Of a stretch of 63,589 nt of DNA, positions 36,497-43,476 are shown one piece after another. Position 1 is the stretch's first letter, and the number at the start of each line of letters is the position of its first letter. The notes under the pieces were generated by a model. That model was not told the origin of the DNA and did no database searches. It was given only the letters and a program-made list of their open reading frames with translations. Source of the stretch: an uncultured Phycisphaerae bacterium (lineage in GTDB: Bacteria > Planctomycetota > Phycisphaerae > UBA1845 > Fen-1342); contig CALGJV010000023.1 in assembly GCA_937928595.1 (NCBI GenBank), positions 1-63,589 of the forward strand, written 5' to 3'. Position numbers and translations under genes: made by a program.

Positions 36497-37488
36497 GCAG
36501 CGCACGGGAAATCGCGCGGCGCGTGATTGCCGACGAGGCGGCCGCCCTGGGACAACTGGCGGAGACGCTCGACGCGGGTTTCGACCAGATTCTCGACACG
36601 ATCCTCGGGGCCAGCGGGCAGGTCGTCGTGAGCGGTCTTGGCAAGAGCGGCAACATCGCGCAGAAGATCGCCGCTTCGCTGACGAGCACCGGCACGCCCG
36701 CGGTGTTCATGCACCCGGTCGAGGCGCTGCACGGTGATCTGGGCATCGTGACGGAGCGGCACTGCCTAATCGCGCTGTCGCGCAGCGGCAACACGGAGGA
36801 GGTCCTGCGCTTCGTCTCACATTTCCGTCGGCTGGGCGGCCCGGTGATCGGCCTCACGCAGCGTCGCGACTCGCGGCTGGCGGAGCTGGCGCGGCATGTG
36901 CTGCTGCTGCCCGACGTGCCCGAGGCGGGCCCGCACCAGCTCGCGCCCACGACGAGCTGCGTGCTGATGCTGGCCGCCGGCGACGCGCTGGCGATGGCCC
37001 TGCTGCACCGCCGGGGCTTCCGGCCGGAGGACTTCGCGCAGTATCACCCGGAAGGGACGCTGGGGCGGCGGCTGCTGCTGCGGGCGGAAGACCTGATGCA
37101 CGCGGGGGCGCAGCTTCCGCGCGTCCCGGCCGACGCGCCGTTTCAGCACATGCTGCTGGAGATGACGCGCAAGCAGCTCGGGTTGGCGCTGATCGTGGAG
37201 GGAGACGGGCGCCTCGTCGGCGTCTTCACCGACGGCGACCTGCGACGGGTGTTCGAGCGCGTTCCGGACCCGCGGGAACTGGACGCCCGGGCGGCGCACG
37301 CCCGCAGCCGGCGCGCGCCGGACGCCCCCCCGGTGCCGGTGTCGACGATCCCGCCCCACCTGCCGGCGGTGGAGTGCCTGCGGATCATGCAGGAGAGCCA
37401 GATCACGAGCCTGGTCGTGGCCGACGAGGGGGGGCGCCCGATCGGCCTGGTGCGGCTGATGGACCTGCTGAAAGCCGGACTGGGTTAG
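36493..37488 (+). CDS. kdsD: D-arabinose 5-phosphate isomerase
   Basis: 331 residues, the family length. Converts ribulose 5-phosphate to arabinose 5-phosphate, the precursor of KDO in lipopolysaccharide. The SIS domain contains VVVSGLGKSGNIAQKIAASL, STGTPAVFMHPVEALHGDLG and SRSGNTEE. QYHPEGTLGRRLLLRAEDLM leads into a pair of CBS domains, with TDGDLRR in the first. GutQ has the same architecture; KdsD is favoured by the envelope context. The start overlaps the stop of the TPR gene by four bases. Confidence 0.92.
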   Translation: MSSAREIARRVIADEAAALGQLAETLDAGFDQILDTILGASGQVVVSGLGKSGNIAQKIAASLTSTGTPAVFMHPVEALHGDLGIVTERHCLIALSRSGNTEEVLRFVSHFRRLGGPVIGLTQRRDSRLAELARHVLLLPDVPEAGPHQLAPTTSCVLMLAAGDALAMALLHRRGFRPEDFAQYHPEGTLGRRLLLRAEDLMHAGAQLPRVPADAPFQHMLLEMTRKQLGLALIVEGDGRLVGVFTDGDLRRVFERVPDPRELDARAAHARSRRAPDAPPVPVSTIPPHLPAVECLRIMQESQITSLVVADEGGRPIGLVRLMDLLKAGLG

Positions 37489-37819
37489 CCGCCCGTTGAA
37501 AAACGCCCGGCTGGGCGTTCAATCGGAGCGGCTGCTCCCGCACTCCGGCCCTGGCCGGCATGGCGCGGCGGCTGCGGCGGACCGGGGGGCCCGGCGCTGC
37601 GGCCTCGCAACGGGTGGGCGGGGCGTACGTCCGATAGCTCGCGTCGCCGCCGGGCACCGGGCGCGGGTTGATCTTACGCACGCCGAAGGGGGAATCGGTC
37701 GATGAACGGGGCGCGGGACCGCGCGCTGCACGCCTGCCCACGCATCGGGACGCGGCGAGCGCGCCAAAGCGGTTCCGGGAACCTCGAACCGGCCCCCTCC
37801 GGGGCAGCCGAGAATCGTC
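37489..37819. other. Intergenic region before fapA
   Basis: 331 bases. A 7-base stem AACGCCC-GGCT-GGGCGTT (37502-37519) lies 13 bases after kdsD, but the T-run is on the minus strand side, so it is a poor terminator for kdsD. No convincing promoter is seen for the fapA-che cluster. The frame covering the rest lacks similarity and is not called. Confidence 0.45.
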
Positions 37820-39358
37820 ATGGCGGCGTCGATCAGCTCCACCGGCCCGGTCAAGCTCATCATCGCGGAGGACCGGATGCAGGCCTGGGTGCAGCGGGCG
37901 GCGGGCACCACACCTGCGGCGGCGCTGATTCGCGCCGCGTTGGCGGCGCAGAACATTCCGATCGACCCGGACATCGACGCGCGCGTCGAGGCGATCGCGC
38001 AGCGCTGGGCCGCCGATGCCGACGCGGCACCGTCCGCGCCCGAGGGCGAGCTCGTGGCCGAGGGTGTGCGGCCGGTCGAAGCGCGCGACGGCTGGTTCGA
38101 ATGGGACGAAGCGCTGCGCCCGAAGACGGCAGCCGACGCGGACGATGGCGCGATCGACTACTTTGCCCTGTGCTCGGTCGTGACAGTGGCGGCGGGGACG
38201 GTCATCGGCCGCATCTGCCCGCCCGTGCCCGGTCAGCCCGGGACCGACATTCTGGGGCGGCCGCGGCCGCCGCTGCGGGAGCGGGGCACGCCATTGAAAG
38301 CGGGACCGGGGGTGCAGGTCGACGAAAAGAGCGGCACGGCGGTTGCGGCGACGGCGGGGCGCGTCGAGATTCGCGACGGTCGGGTGCGGCTGTTCGACAA
38401 CCTGGAAGTGCCGGGCGACGTGGATTTCGCCTCGGGCAGCATCGATGCCTGCGTGGACGTGCATGTGCACGGTTCGGTGCGCAGCAACTTCCGCGTCCAC
38501 ACGACCGGGCAGTTGACGGTTGAGAAGGCGATCGAAGCGGCGGACGTCCGCGTCGGGAGCGACTGCATTGTGCGGGGCGGGGTATTCGGGAAGGGCGGGA
38601 CCGGGCGCCTGGAATGCGCGGGCAACATCACGGCGCACCTGCTGAACGAGACGACGGTGGCGGCGGTCGGTGACGTGCGGTTCACGAAGGAGATCCTCAA
38701 CAGCCGCGTGGTGTGCCAGGGTTGGCTGGAGGGGCAGCGCGGTACGGTGATCGGCGGCGATGTGTACGCCCGGGAGGGAGTGCGGGTGCAAGTGCTGGGC
38801 AGCGAGGCGGGCGTGGAAACGCTCGTCGCCGTCGGCACGCATGTCGATGTGTACCGCCACGTGCGGCGGCTCGAGCGGCGCATCAGTAACGTGCAGCGGG
38901 CGGCGGAGCAGATTCGCACGGCGCTGGCGCCGCTGATGGCGAACCTCAAGCGGCTGACCCCCGCGCAGCGCGAGCGGGCGACGGAGCTGATGTCCCGGGC
39001 GGACGAGATGGAGCTCGAAACCGATGGCCTGCGGGCGGAAATCGAGCGTCGGCTGACCGAGGGGCGGCCGCGCGGCACGCCGCGGATCGAGGTGGGCGAC
39101 CGGGTGTACACGGGGGTGCGGCTGACACTGAACACGCGGGTCGTCGAGGTGCGCAAGCCGCTGGTGGGGCCGCTGAAGATCGAGCTGCGGAAGATCAAGA
39201 ATGTGACCGAGGTGGTCGCGGTCAATTCGCGCACGGGGTCGGTGACGATTCTGCCGAGCGTGGAGGCGGACCTCGACGCGCCCCCGTCCGACCTGAAGGA
39301 GGCCGAGCAATCTCATGACAGCCGTGACGAACAACCTCAATCGCCCGCCCGCGCCTGA
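37820..39358 (+). CDS. FapA-family protein (DUF342)
   Basis: 512 residues from an ATG with a weak ribosome-binding site. The N-terminal third is a FapA-type domain with IGRICPPVPGQPGTDILGRP and LFDNLEVPGDVDFASGSIDA. A right-handed beta-helix of hydrophobic repeats follows (VHVHGSVRSNFRVHTTGQLT, GVFGKGGTGRLECAGNITAH). A coiled coil (about 345-420) and a short C-terminal beta-domain complete it. The family fold is known, but its roles (cell-surface signalling, polar localisation, motility in some bacteria) are not settled. It overlaps cheX by 44 bases, so it is coupled to the chemotaxis genes. Confidence 0.85.
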   Translation: MAASISSTGPVKLIIAEDRMQAWVQRAAGTTPAAALIRAALAAQNIPIDPDIDARVEAIAQRWAADADAAPSAPEGELVAEGVRPVEARDGWFEWDEALRPKTAADADDGAIDYFALCSVVTVAAGTVIGRICPPVPGQPGTDILGRPRPPLRERGTPLKAGPGVQVDEKSGTAVAATAGRVEIRDGRVRLFDNLEVPGDVDFASGSIDACVDVHVHGSVRSNFRVHTTGQLTVEKAIEAADVRVGSDCIVRGGVFGKGGTGRLECAGNITAHLLNETTVAAVGDVRFTKEILNSRVVCQGWLEGQRGTVIGGDVYAREGVRVQVLGSEAGVETLVAVGTHVDVYRHVRRLERRISNVQRAAEQIRTALAPLMANLKRLTPAQRERATELMSRADEMELETDGLRAEIERRLTEGRPRGTPRIEVGDRVYTGVRLTLNTRVVEVRKPLVGPLKIELRKIKNVTEVVAVNSRTGSVTILPSVEADLDAPPSDLKEAEQSHDSRDEQPQSPARA

Positions 39359-39791
39359 CCTGGGCCGGCTGCTCTCCGACGTCCTGGGCGATCTGGCATT
39401 CATGATCGCGGACGATCCGCCGCCCGCTCCGTCGCCCGGCACGCTGTGGCTCCACGGGGCGATCCGTTTCGACGGCGGCGCGCACCACGGCACGGCGCGG
39501 GTCTGGTGTTCGCGCGTCTTTGCCCAGCGCCTGGCGGCGAACCTGCTGGGCCTCGAGCCCGGCGAGGGGACCGTACAGGTGGGGGCGGAGGATGCGCTGC
39601 GCGAGTTCCTGAACGTACTCTGCGGTCAGCTCGTGACCACCTGGTACGGCACGCAGGACGTTTTCAATCTCTCGATCCCGGAGGTGACCGAGGCCCTGGA
39701 TCCGCCGCCGCCCCCGGACCCGACGGCGGTCCACTGCCGGGTACAGGTCGACGGCGAGCCGGTAATCTGCACGGTCACTCGAGGAGGCTAG
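39315..39791 (+). CDS. cheX: CheX/CheC-type chemotaxis phosphatase
   Basis: 158 residues. The signature DALREFLNVLCG fits the DxxxExxNxxxG helix of CheC/CheX/FliY phosphatases, whose Glu and Asn hydrolyse CheY-phosphate. Only one such motif is present, as in CheX. An AAGGAGG box at 39296-39302 lies within the end of fapA, 12 bases before the ATG. The Pro-rich segments at residues 34-42 and 129-136 are linkers. The C-terminus RVQVDGEPVICTVTRGG ends one base before cheR. No CheY is present in the window. Confidence 0.72.
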   Translation: MTAVTNNLNRPPAPDLGRLLSDVLGDLAFMIADDPPPAPSPGTLWLHGAIRFDGGAHHGTARVWCSRVFAQRLAANLLGLEPGEGTVQVGAEDALREFLNVLCGQLVTTWYGTQDVFNLSIPEVTEALDPPPPPDPTAVHCRVQVDGEPVICTVTRGG

Positions 39792-39792
39792 C

Positions 39793-40668
39793 GTGGGCGC
39801 GAGGTCGCGTGAGAAGGTCGCTCTGGGCGACGAACTGCACGAACTCACCGCGGAAGAATACGAGCTGTTTCGACGGCTCGTCTACGAGCACAGCGGGATC
39901 AACCTCGGACCCCAGAAGCAACAGCTTCTGCGAGCTCGGCTGGGGAAGCTGTTGCGCGGGCAGGGGTTCCGGTCGTACCGCGCGTACTACGAGCACGTGC
40001 GCGCGGACGCGTCGGGCAGCGAGCTGTGTGCGCTGATTGACGCCATCTCGACCAACACCACGCACCTGTTCCGGGAGCGACAGCATTTCGATTTCCTGGC
40101 GGAGGTCCTGCGCACGCGCTGGGTCGAGGCGTCGCCCCGGGAACGGCCGCGCGACCTGCGGATCTGGAGCGCCGGGTGCTCGAGCGGCGAGGAGCCGTAC
40201 TCGATCGCGATGACGGTCGATGACACGCTCGCGCCGCTGGCGGGCTACGACTGGAAGCTGCTGGCCACCGACGTGTCCACGAAGGTGCTGGCGAAAGCCC
40301 GCGAGGGGCTGTTCGAGCCGCACCGGCTGGGGACGGTGCCCGAGACCTTCCGCCGGCGGTACTTCGTGCGGGCGGCGCGCGACGCGGCCTGCGTGCAGGT
40401 CCGCCCCGAGCTGCGGCAGCGCATCTGCTTCTCGCGCCTCAACCTGATGGACGAGCAGTTCCCGTTCCGGCACGGCTTCGACTTCATCTTCTGCCGGAAC
40501 GTGATGATCTACTTCGACCGCGAGACCCAGACGCGCCTGGTCGCGAAGTTCGCCCAGCACCTGCGGCCCCAGGGGCACCTGCTGATCGGTCACTCGGAGA
40601 GCCTCAACAACATCGACCATCCGCTCACGTATGTCCGGCCGACGATCTACCGACGAGGGCCGACATGA
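39793..40668 (+). CDS. cheR: Chemotaxis protein methyltransferase
   Basis: 291 residues. Methylates glutamates of chemoreceptors using S-adenosylmethionine. The GTG at 39793 follows GGAGG. The N-terminal helical domain contains ELFRRLVYEHSGINLGPQK and ISTNTTHLFRER. The catalytic domain has motif I IWSAGCSSGEEPYSIAM, and DFIFCRNVMIYFDRE followed by HLLIGHSESL. There is no C-terminal TPR or pentapeptide-binding extension. The stop overlaps the cheD start as ATGA. Confidence 0.95.
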   Translation: MGARSREKVALGDELHELTAEEYELFRRLVYEHSGINLGPQKQQLLRARLGKLLRGQGFRSYRAYYEHVRADASGSELCALIDAISTNTTHLFRERQHFDFLAEVLRTRWVEASPRERPRDLRIWSAGCSSGEEPYSIAMTVDDTLAPLAGYDWKLLATDVSTKVLAKAREGLFEPHRLGTVPETFRRRYFVRAARDAACVQVRPELRQRICFSRLNLMDEQFPFRHGFDFIFCRNVMIYFDRETQTRLVAKFAQHLRPQGHLLIGHSESLNNIDHPLTYVRPTIYRRGPT

Positions 40669-41150
40669 GCGGTCCGGCGGTCGATGTGTACCTGGCGCCG
40701 GGCGAGTTGCTGGTGAGTACGCGGGGTGTGCAAGTGCGCACGGTGCTCGGCAGTTGCGTGGCCGTGTGCCTGTGGGATCCGGCGCGGGGCATCGGCGGCC
40801 TGAACCACTTCCTGCTGCCCCGCCCGGGCGCGCGCGACGGGACGGACTTCCGGTTCGGGACCGTCTCGACGGCCGCGCTGGTGCAGCGCGTCTGCCGCGG
40901 CGGAAGCCGGCCGGCCGAGCTCACGGCGGCCGTGATCGGCGGCGGCCACCCGCACCGGGCCTTGAAGAGCACGGTGGGGGACGAGAACGTGGCGGCGGCG
41001 TTGGCGGTGCTGGGCGAGCACGGCGTGGCGGTGGCCCGGCAAGACACCGGCGGTCCGTACGGCCGCCGGTTGCTGTTTCACACGGGCACGGGTGTGCTCA
41101 CGGTCTGCCGACTGCGACGGTGGGGGGCGGTGGCGGGGGAGCCGGCATGA
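40665..41150 (+). CDS. cheD: Chemoreceptor glutamine deamidase
   Basis: 161 residues. Deamidates receptor glutamines and, in bacteria with CheC/CheX-type proteins, may bind them. Catalytic Cys31 lies in TVLGSCVAVCLWD and His48 in GLNHFLLP. GGGHPHRALKSTVGDENVA and DTGGPYGRRLLFHTGTG are family motifs. The start overlaps the cheR stop and the stop overlaps the cheB start, each by ATGA, so translation is coupled through all three. Confidence 0.93.
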   Translation: MSGPAVDVYLAPGELLVSTRGVQVRTVLGSCVAVCLWDPARGIGGLNHFLLPRPGARDGTDFRFGTVSTAALVQRVCRGGSRPAELTAAVIGGGHPHRALKSTVGDENVAAALAVLGEHGVAVARQDTGGPYGRRLLFHTGTGVLTVCRLRRWGAVAGEPA

Positions 41151-42217
41151 TGCGTGACGGACCGGTTCGCGTGCTGCTGATCGACGACCAGCCGCTCCAG
41201 CGCCAAGCGGTCGCGGCGGAGCTGGACCGGGTCGGCGATCTGCACGCGGTCGCGTGCTCCGGAGAGCAGGCCGAGATCCGTCAGCGGCTCACGCAGTTCC
41301 ATCCCGAGGTCGTGCTGCTTGCGCTGGATCTCCGTAGCCAGGACCCGTTGGCGCTGCTGCGCACGCTGCGCGAGCACTACCCGGTTCCCGTCATCGTGAC
41401 GACCGAAGCCCAGGGCTTGGCGGCCGACCGGGCGGTCCGGGCCGCGGCTGAGGGCGCGCTCGATGTCGTTCGACGCCCGGACGGCCGCGGTCGCGAAGCG
41501 CTGGCGGTCTATACCCGGGAGCTGGCTGAGCGGATCCACGGGGCCGTGCAACTGGCGCGGCCGGTGCGGCTGGCGCCGCCGGGGGCGCGCGCGCCGCGCG
41601 GCGTGGAAGGTTTCGACCCGCGGCAGTACCTGGTGGTCATTGGGGCATCGACCGGCGGGACGCAGGCGCTCGCGGCATTGCTCGAACAGGCCCCCGTGGA
41701 CTTCCCGGCGGTGGCGATCGTGCAGCACATGCCGCCCGGCTTCACGCGCTCCTTCGCCGAGCGGCTGAACCGGGGCTGTGCCCTGCGGGTGACGGAGGCG
41801 GCCGACGGCGATCCGCTGGGACCCGGCCGGGCGGTCGTGGCACGCGGGGACACACACCTGACCGTGTCCGGCAGTCCCGGCGCCTGGCGCGCCCGCTACA
41901 CCGACCAGACGCCCGTGAACCGGCATTGTCCGAGCGTCGACGTATTGTTCGAATCGGCGGCCGCATGGGGACGGCGGGTGGTCGGAGTGCTGCTGACCGG
42001 CATGGGGGCCGACGGGGCGCGCGGGCTCCTGCGACTCCGGCAGTGCGGGGCGCTGACCGTCGCGCAGGACGAGGCGTCCTGCGTGGTGTACGGGATGCCG
42101 CGAGAGGCCGTGCGCATGGGTGCGGCGGCGCTCGAGGCGAGTCCCGCCGACATCCCAGCCCTGATCTTGAAAACCCTAAGCGCCCGCGTGCGGCCCGCCG
42201 CCGCGCGGACCCCATGA
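41147..42217 (+). CDS. cheB: Protein-glutamate methylesterase with degenerate receiver domain
   Basis: 356 residues. Removes receptor methyl groups. The C-terminal esterase is intact: Ser in GASTGG, His in QHMPPGFT, Asp in GMGADGA. The N-terminal receiver is not. Acidic Asp13-Asp14 (LLIDDQP) and Thr86 are present, but the phospho-acceptor position in HPEVVLLALDL is Ala59 where Asp is expected, and the conserved Lys before Pro is Arg111. Phosphorylation by CheA is therefore unlikely; Asp61 is two residues off. The esterase may be constitutive or gated another way. An ATG at 41150 is an alternative start. Confidence 0.93.
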   Translation: MMRDGPVRVLLIDDQPLQRQAVAAELDRVGDLHAVACSGEQAEIRQRLTQFHPEVVLLALDLRSQDPLALLRTLREHYPVPVIVTTEAQGLAADRAVRAAAEGALDVVRRPDGRGREALAVYTRELAERIHGAVQLARPVRLAPPGARAPRGVEGFDPRQYLVVIGASTGGTQALAALLEQAPVDFPAVAIVQHMPPGFTRSFAERLNRGCALRVTEAADGDPLGPGRAVVARGDTHLTVSGSPGAWRARYTDQTPVNRHCPSVDVLFESAAAWGRRVVGVLLTGMGADGARGLLRLRQCGALTVAQDEASCVVYGMPREAVRMGAAALEASPADIPALILKTLSARVRPAAARTP

Positions 42218-42225
42218 CACCGCCG

Positions 42226-43476
42226 CTACCCCCGGGCTTCGCGCGCCACGCGCTCCAGAAACCGCGTCATTTCCGCGTACACGATCCGCCGGTCGAAGAC
42301 TTCCTCCGCCAGACGCCGCGCGGCCGCGCCCATCGCCCGGCGCTCATCGGCCGACTCGACGAGCCGCCGGACGGCGGCGAAGCACGCGTCCACGTCGCCC
42401 GCCGCGTAGTTCAACCCGCACCGATGCCGGTCGACGAGTTCCGCGCACTGGCCGGGAATCGTGTTGAGGACGGCCGCCCCGGCTGCGAGGTAGTAGAAGA
42501 TTTTGTTGGGGAAGTAGATCAGCGCCTCCGGGAAAGAAGCGTTGAAGCCGGCATCGGCCCGGGACAGGACGCAGGCCCACTCGTCGAAGTCGAGGAAGCC
42601 CGTCAGCGTGACGTTGCGCAGGCCATGTTGGCGCACGAGCGCGGCCGCGCGCGACGCGAGCTCGCCGGTTCCGGTGAGGACGAAGCGGACGCGGTCGCCG
42701 AAGGTCTTCTGCGCGGGAACGGCAGCGCGCACGATGGTCAGGAAGTCGTACGCGTGGCTGAGGCTGCCGGAGTAAAGCAGCCAGACCTGGTCCGGGGGCT
42801 TCGGCCAGCGGTCGCCGCAGCGCGCCGCGCCGCGCTGCATGGCCGCGGCCACGTCGGCCAGATCGACCCCCAGCGGAAACATGCCGGTCCAGCGCTTCGC
42901 CCCGCCCACCCGCAGGCTCCGCTGCACATAACCGTCCGCGACACCGATGAGAGCGTCGGCCCCGCGATAGGCGCGGCGCTCCCAGGCGTAGTACGGGCGG
43001 AACAGGAGGCGGCTCAGCGGCCGCAGGACGCGCGGCGTGACGCGGACGAAGTTGTCCGGCCATTGATCCTGGATATCGACGACGGTGGGCACGCCCCAGC
43101 CGCGTCCCCGCTCCACGGCGCGGGCGGCGAGCTCGAGGGGGGGAGAGCTGGCGAGGATGAGATCGGGGCGCGGGGCGGACGGGGCCGCGGCGGCGAACTC
43201 GGTCGCGAGGCGGCGATGGTTGCGCAGGCGGGCGAAGGACACGTTACGGGTGTACGGCGGGGCGGCCAGCAGGCGGACCTCCAGACCGGCGGCCCGGGCC
43301 GCTTGCGCGACCGGCTCCGGGTCGACCGGGCGTTTGAAGCGGTGGGAGAACGCGCTGGACCACCACACGACGTCGTGACCGGCCTGCCGCAGGCAGCGTG
43401 CCAGGAACCCGTAACGGCCAAGCTGCTCGCGCTCGCCGGGCAGGGGGTCGAAGGGGTTGACGATCCAGATCAGCAT
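42226..43476 (-). CDS. Glycosyltransferase family 4
   Basis: 416 residues, starting MLIWIVNPFDPLPGEREQLG. It is GT-B fold with an N-domain containing SSPPLELAARAVERGRGWGV and VDIQDQWPDNF. The C-domain has LLYSGSLSHAYDFLTIVRA and the donor-site region FNASFPEALIYFPNKIFYYL. It resembles WbuB-type enzymes of surface polysaccharide assembly; donor and acceptor are unknown. It overlaps the upstream glycosyltransferase by 7 bases, so the pair forms one operon. Its end lies 8 bases from the convergent end of cheB. Confidence 0.87.
   Translation of the reverse strand: MLIWIVNPFDPLPGEREQLGRYGFLARCLRQAGHDVVWWSSAFSHRFKRPVDPEPVAQAARAAGLEVRLLAAPPYTRNVSFARLRNHRRLATEFAAAAPSAPRPDLILASSPPLELAARAVERGRGWGVPTVVDIQDQWPDNFVRVTPRVLRPLSRLLFRPYYAWERRAYRGADALIGVADGYVQRSLRVGGAKRWTGMFPLGVDLADVAAAMQRGAARCGDRWPKPPDQVWLLYSGSLSHAYDFLTIVRAAVPAQKTFGDRVRFVLTGTGELASRAAALVRQHGLRNVTLTGFLDFDEWACVLSRADAGFNASFPEALIYFPNKIFYYLAAGAAVLNTIPGQCAELVDRHRCGLNYAAGDVDACFAAVRRLVESADERRAMGAAARRLAEEVFDRRIVYAEMTRFLERVAREARG

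Follow-up and report, generated by a model that had tools for sequence, protein, structure and literature searches.

A fapA-headed chemotaxis gene cassette with a decayed CheB receiver in an uncultured Phycisphaerae planctomycete

The DNA analyzed here (the window) is one entire contig of 63,589 nucleotides (CALGJV010000023.1) from the genome of an uncultured Phycisphaerae bacterium (GenBank assembly GCA_937928595.1; order UBA1845, family Fen-1342; 3.69 Mb, 97.9% complete, 46 contigs), and it carries the chemotaxis cassette fapA-cheX-cheR-cheD-cheB (Table 1). All five genes match Pfam above the curated cut-offs (FapA_N and FapA; CheX; CheR_N and CheR; CheD; Response_reg and CheB_methylest), and no cheA, cheW, or receptor gene adjoins them. 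Pfam and sequence thus agree with a preliminary description, made from the sequence alone, that placed this set at 37820-42217 without CheA, CheW, or receptor alongside. The junctions that it reported can likewise be read directly from the sequence: fapA and cheX have 44 bases in common (39315-39358), cheX and cheR are separated by 1 base (39792), and ATGA overlaps join cheR to cheD (40665-40668) and cheD to cheB (41147-41150). Because the fapA/cheX and cheR/cheD overlaps are also found in relatives, this packing is not due to chance. On the same strand, a kpsF-like gene lies 331 bp before fapA, and on the opposite strand a glycosyltransferase-like open reading frame (ORF), convergent with the cassette, lies 8 bp past cheB, indicating that the unit consists of exactly these five genes.

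Table 1. Cassette genes, altered CheB receiver codons, and flanking features, in positions of the window
Feature	Position	Strand	Description	Evidence
fapA	37820..39358	+	512 aa; N-terminal domain, beta-solenoid, long helical hairpin (342-415)	Pfam PF20250, PF03961; AlphaFold2 model
cheX	39315..39791	+	158 aa; CheX/CheC-type phosphatase, DxxxExxN kept	Pfam PF13690; alignment with relatives
cheR	39793..40668	+	291 aa; sole CheR of the genome	Pfam PF01739; whole-genome search
cheD	40665..41150	+	161 aa; CheD2, second, divergent CheD	Pfam PF03975; PDB 2f9z alignment; CheD1/CheD2 alignment
cheB	41147..42217	+	356 aa; receiver pocket decayed, methylesterase domain intact	Pfam; Salmonella CheB 1a2o alignment; CheB comparison
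cheB codon GCG (Ala59)	41321..41323	+	at receiver phosphoacceptor Asp position (Salmonella CheB Asp56)	sequence, 1a2o alignment, CheB comparison
cheB codon CGC (Arg110)	41474..41476	+	at conserved receiver Lys position	sequence, 1a2o alignment, CheB comparison
kpsF-like SIS-CBS gene	36508..37488 (start approximate)	+	upstream syntenic marker	Pfam SIS, CBS; synteny
intergenic kpsF-fapA	37489..37819	+	331 bp	sequence
glycosyltransferase-like ORF	42226..43422 (extent approximate)	-	convergent	ORF list; weak homologue in L187

The remaining chemosensory genes, which the preliminary description had suggested looking for, were located on other contigs of the same genome. A single CheA (with a CheW domain) and a single CheW are encoded next to each other on contig C12 (L007; read from ORF and hidden Markov model [HMM] evidence), and three receptors are encoded in isolation on C3, C13, and C26 (L008-L010), none with an NWETF-type C-terminal pentapeptide when judged by eye. 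The only CheR of the whole genome is that of the cassette. CheD and CheB are each present twice: CheD1 is encoded on C4 (L139:6797-7231), followed by an HDOD gene and cheY, and CheB2, with an intact receiver, on C10 (L171:7992-10143), followed by cheX2 and cheY2. This cheB2-cheX2-cheY trio recurs in two family members (L182 and L183). Flagellar genes are also present, with fliD and fliS inside the window and FliF and FliG in the genome, so that the genome holds a complete flagellar chemosensory set (CheA, CheW, three receptors, and cheY genes on C4 and C10). Since there is one CheA, one CheW, and one CheR, the cassette serves the only CheA system of this genome. The che fragments on C12, C4, and C10 all lie mid-contig, so their separation is not an assembly break.

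To compare relatives, HMMs built from the cassette proteins were run over the loci around FapA genes; nearly all compared genomes are metagenome-assembled genomes (MAGs). Of 14 family genomes that have FapA, 11 show the order fapA-cheX-cheR; cheB comes after it in most, and cheD is often present (L102, L103, and L105-L110; L113 and L114 are truncated at contig ends). The order is therefore not an accident of this genome, and the preliminary description, which would have been refuted had the order been confined to it, passes on this point. The five genes are conserved as a unit; CheD2 is missing in some relatives. Its site is syntenic across the family, running infB, a TPR gene, kpsF, the cassette, an mraY-like gene, two enoyl-CoA hydratase genes, and nadC. 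A second locus, cheA-cheW-cheD1-HDOD and mostly cheY, was found in nine family members (L173-L179, L181, and L180, which runs off its contig); in the genome of the window, this second part is broken once more, between cheW and cheD1. Other genomes of the same order (L118, L130, and L135; L132 in part) hold an unsplit operon, cheA-cheW-fapA-cheD-HDOD-cheY-cheX-cheR-cheB, of which JAAYCU010000124.1 (L208) and JACQXM010000068.1 (L209) are named copies. The joined operon resembles the cassette in its protein families, in its cheX-cheR-cheB order, and in including fapA; it differs in being unsplit, in having CheD1 after fapA, and in its intact CheB receiver pocket. Because same-order relatives keep the whole operon, we regard the cassette as a fragment of it. 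An uninterrupted che cluster that includes fapA is found beyond the class as well (L091), suggesting that the joined arrangement is the older one.

The window CheB departs from a canonical receiver at two positions. Aligned with Salmonella CheB (1a2o), it has Ala59 in place of the phosphoacceptor Asp and Arg110 in place of the conserved Lys (Table 1) but retains two acidic residues (DD) and the Thr, and its methylesterase Ser-His-Asp triad is kept (GASTGG, QHM, and GMGAD). Among the 13 CheB proteins encoded at this site in the family (CheB1), 11 have lost one or more of the five receiver residues, in differing combinations and in L265 only by an Asp-to-Glu change; L102 and L109 retain all five, as do 3/3 CheB1 proteins from the same order. 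The paralogue provides an internal control: receiver loss was found in 0/17 fully scored family CheB2 proteins versus 11/13 CheB1 proteins (P = 1.4 × 10−6; one further CheB2 copy, cut by a contig end, is outside the 17, and row L144, the window CheB, is not counted among them, though it is inside the 0.556 mean). Mean identity among family CheB1 proteins is 0.36 in the receiver versus 0.61 in the methylesterase domain, compared to 0.72 and 0.74, respectively, in the same order, and the GASTGG, QHM, and GMGxD motifs are present in all but one of the 13. The lost residues together with this difference in identity indicate that the receiver has been freed from constraint while the enzyme was kept, and the conserved methylesterase domain argues that the enzyme is still under selection.

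The methylesterase domain and the overall architecture thus mark the window protein as a CheB, yet its sequence predicts that it is not phosphorylation competent, and feedback through it is probably uncoupled from CheA. A methylesterase of this kind has a precedent, since the auxiliary CheB that helps define the F3 class of Campylobacterota lacks a receiver domain (PMC9321776). The likeness concerns CheB and extends to a methylesterase without a working receiver; in the F3 protein the receiver is absent, whereas in the planctomycete protein it is present with a mutated pocket. A narrow literature search found no paper on a mutated receiver in full-length CheB. The decayed receiver is the new element of this cassette: within a conserved unit, the phosphorylation feedback appears to have been dismantled and the enzyme retained. 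As a tentative possibility, receptor adaptation in the family may rely on a CheB that cannot accept phosphate from CheA, control of the fapA-linked CheB having passed to CheD2, CheX, or FapA after the operon split while CheB2 serves the CheA-dependent feedback. ORFs of 1,032 to 1,387 aa matching both CheB and CheR, and thus encoding CheB-CheR fusion proteins, were also observed in some genomes of the family (G301:C139, G305:C197, G307:C149, G295:C65, and G311:C234) but not in that of the window.

CheX scores 33.5 bits in Pfam (cut-off, 27) and carries the motif DALREFLN; its ExxN is conserved in all family members aligned, and phosphatase activity is likely given the retained DxxxExxN, while a sequence search of the PDB found no relative. 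CheR matches both the CheR_N and the S-adenosylmethionine-binding domain. CheD2 keeps the catalytic Cys and His in alignments with PDB 2f9z and with CheD1; the position six residues before the Cys, a Thr in CheD1, is occupied by Arg or Lys in 8/8 CheD2 proteins, which have a Thr one place later instead.

FapA is a beta-solenoid protein of many flagellated bacteria, and its role is unsettled. The window protein scores 162 bits for the N-terminal region and 86 bits for the beta-solenoid domain (cut-offs, 31 and 27), and its AlphaFold2 model (mean predicted local distance difference test score of 92.9) combines a beta-solenoid and a long helical hairpin, giving the protein, as modeled, the look of a scaffold. 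Searches of the PDB with the single sequence or a profile returned nothing meaningful, and structural searches with the model (Foldseek and VIA-align) returned generic solenoid and helical-hairpin matches only; no MinC-like solenoid was among the matches listed, which excludes nothing as to that idea. Some Planctomycetota (G004, G155, G144, G111, and others) carry three to six FapA genes per genome, and elsewhere several FapA genes lie in frames of 800 to 950 aa far from che genes.

Natural deletions at the kpsF-nadC site separate FapA from receptor adaptation. G293 (94% complete; L188) has fapA at the site without cheX-cheR-cheD-cheB, and its whole genome gave no match for CheR, CheB, CheD, or CheA, only a lone CheW domain, while FliF is present. 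G309 (L111) resembles it in having fapA without the che cassette, but this genome is only 62% complete, and the case is hence a probable one. Conversely, in G295 (95% complete; L265), cheX-cheR-cheB directly follows kpsF and both CheA and CheW are present, yet no FapA was found in the whole genome. These reciprocal deletions indicate that neither fapA nor the che genes need the other, and they weaken the preliminary suggestion of a role for FapA alongside receptor modification or signal termination. FapA instead tracks the flagellum. Across 292 genomes of the phylum, FliG was found in 63/66 genomes with FapA versus 110/226 without it (Fisher's exact test, P = 2 × 10−13, uncorrected for kinship). 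FapA is therefore tied to the flagellum across the phylum, in agreement with published work. HubP recruits Vibrio FapA to the flagellated pole (PMC12918733 and works cited in PMC6877527), and Borrelia fapA sits in a flagellar superoperon (PMC11607428); the polar position of FapA and its requirement in flagellar assembly are known from Vibrio work only. The window protein shares with Vibrio FapA and Borrelia BB0267 FapA the family by name and the tie to the flagellum (PMC6877527, PMC12918733, PMC11607428); our data give no evidence for EIIAGlc or HubP as a partner in this planctomycete.

The preliminary description had also called an order headed by FapA unusual. This holds for the order itself, which is special to this family, but FapA beside che genes is common. 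Counting che genes other than CheY within 5 kb on the same strand, FapA adjoins them at 12/15 loci in the family, 12/21 in the order, and 15/21 in the class, at only 2/39 loci in the rest of the phylum, and at 27/43 loci from other phyla, the latter an uneven draw made up of the best-scoring loci of one scan. The loci from other phyla are mostly Bacillota operons of the form cheB-cheA-cheW-(cheC)-cheD-...-fapA (for example, L218 from Anaerospora and L235 from Syntrophomonas), which resemble the cassette in placing fapA among chemotaxis genes but differ in that fapA is last rather than first, cheA and cheW are included, and, in our reading, CheC takes the place of CheX.

Together, we consider it probable that the cassette is a piece of a split flagellar chemotaxis operon in which FapA is a flagellum-linked scaffold and the CheB receiver has decayed. 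An ancestral operon, cheA-cheW-fapA-cheD-HDOD-cheY-cheX-cheR-cheB, would have broken up so that, in this family, fapA ended up ahead of cheX-cheR-(cheD2)-cheB while cheA-cheW-cheD1-HDOD-cheY remained elsewhere. The cassette would then form one transcription unit of the sole CheA-based flagellar chemotaxis system of this planctomycete: CheR and CheB would control how far the three receptors, whose genes lie elsewhere, are methylated, CheD would deamidate these receptors, and CheX would dephosphorylate CheY-P. The window CheB, lacking the phosphoacceptor Asp and the Lys but keeping its catalytic triad, should not respond to phosphate from CheA. FapA, as a putative cytoplasmic scaffold of beta-solenoid and coiled coil tied to the flagellum, would be coexpressed with the adaptation proteins but not needed by them. 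What began as a curiosity of gene order thereby becomes a testable case relevant to the unsettled question of what FapA does.

Several observations weigh against this split-operon reading. Within the family, the occurrence of FapA shows a weak association with that of CheR (P = 0.04), so that a functional link is conceivable, and in other Phycisphaerae FapA stands beside a cheX of the other type (cheX2-cheY-fapA), hinting at a recurrent tie between FapA and CheX or CheY. How many times the receiver was lost independently is not fixed by the CheB tree, which was built on catalytic domains and has poor resolution. Adjacent genes need not share one mRNA, and the region upstream of the window's own fapA has GCCGAAG only and lacks the exact −10-like element of a sigma-28 promoter. 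Finally, a gene absent from a MAG may simply have fallen into a gap, although the decisive deletions sit within contigs and are flanked by genes.

Were FapA a direct partner of CheX, CheD, or CheB and the cassette a dedicated functional module, as the preliminary description had it, one could account for the conserved translational overlap of fapA and cheX, for the occurrence of cheX near FapA in two arrangements (fapA-cheX1 and cheX2-cheY-fapA), and for the frequency of che neighbors in the family, order, class, and other phyla. We nevertheless hold this to be improbable, because G295 keeps cheX-cheR-cheB, CheA, and CheW without FapA, G293 keeps FapA and FliF without CheA, CheR, CheB, or CheD, 37/39 FapA loci in the rest of the phylum have no che gene nearby, and FapA follows FliG. 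A separate, nonflagellar chemosensory pathway with another output might be suspected from a cassette without cheA, cheW, cheY, or a receptor and from the second CheB-CheX-CheY set on C10. This is largely excluded, and in our view highly improbable, given that the genome has a single CheA, a single CheW, and the cassette's CheR as its only one, that same-order relatives hold these genes in one operon with cheA, and that flagellar genes are present. Neutral decay of the operon, with a chance gene order, a drifting CheB1 receiver, and CheB2 doing the regulated methylesterase work, would be compatible with the split-operon reading; the intact CheB2 receiver in every family genome scored, the differing receiver residues lost among CheB1 proteins, and the absence of CheD2 from some relatives all fit it. 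It is rather improbable, however, since the operon overlaps are conserved and the CheB1 methylesterase domain is as well.

The region upstream of the cassette offers a hint about expression. A promoter scan of the window's upstream region found neither a sigma-54 site nor a full sigma-28 site, and the GCCGAAG mentioned above lies at approximately −138 from fapA and is similar to the −10 element of sigma-28 promoters. Across the family, the −10-like motif GCCGATW occurs in 4/9 intergenic regions scanned (those preceding fapA or, in its absence, cheX) versus 0.35 expected, a post hoc comparison that serves as a hint only.

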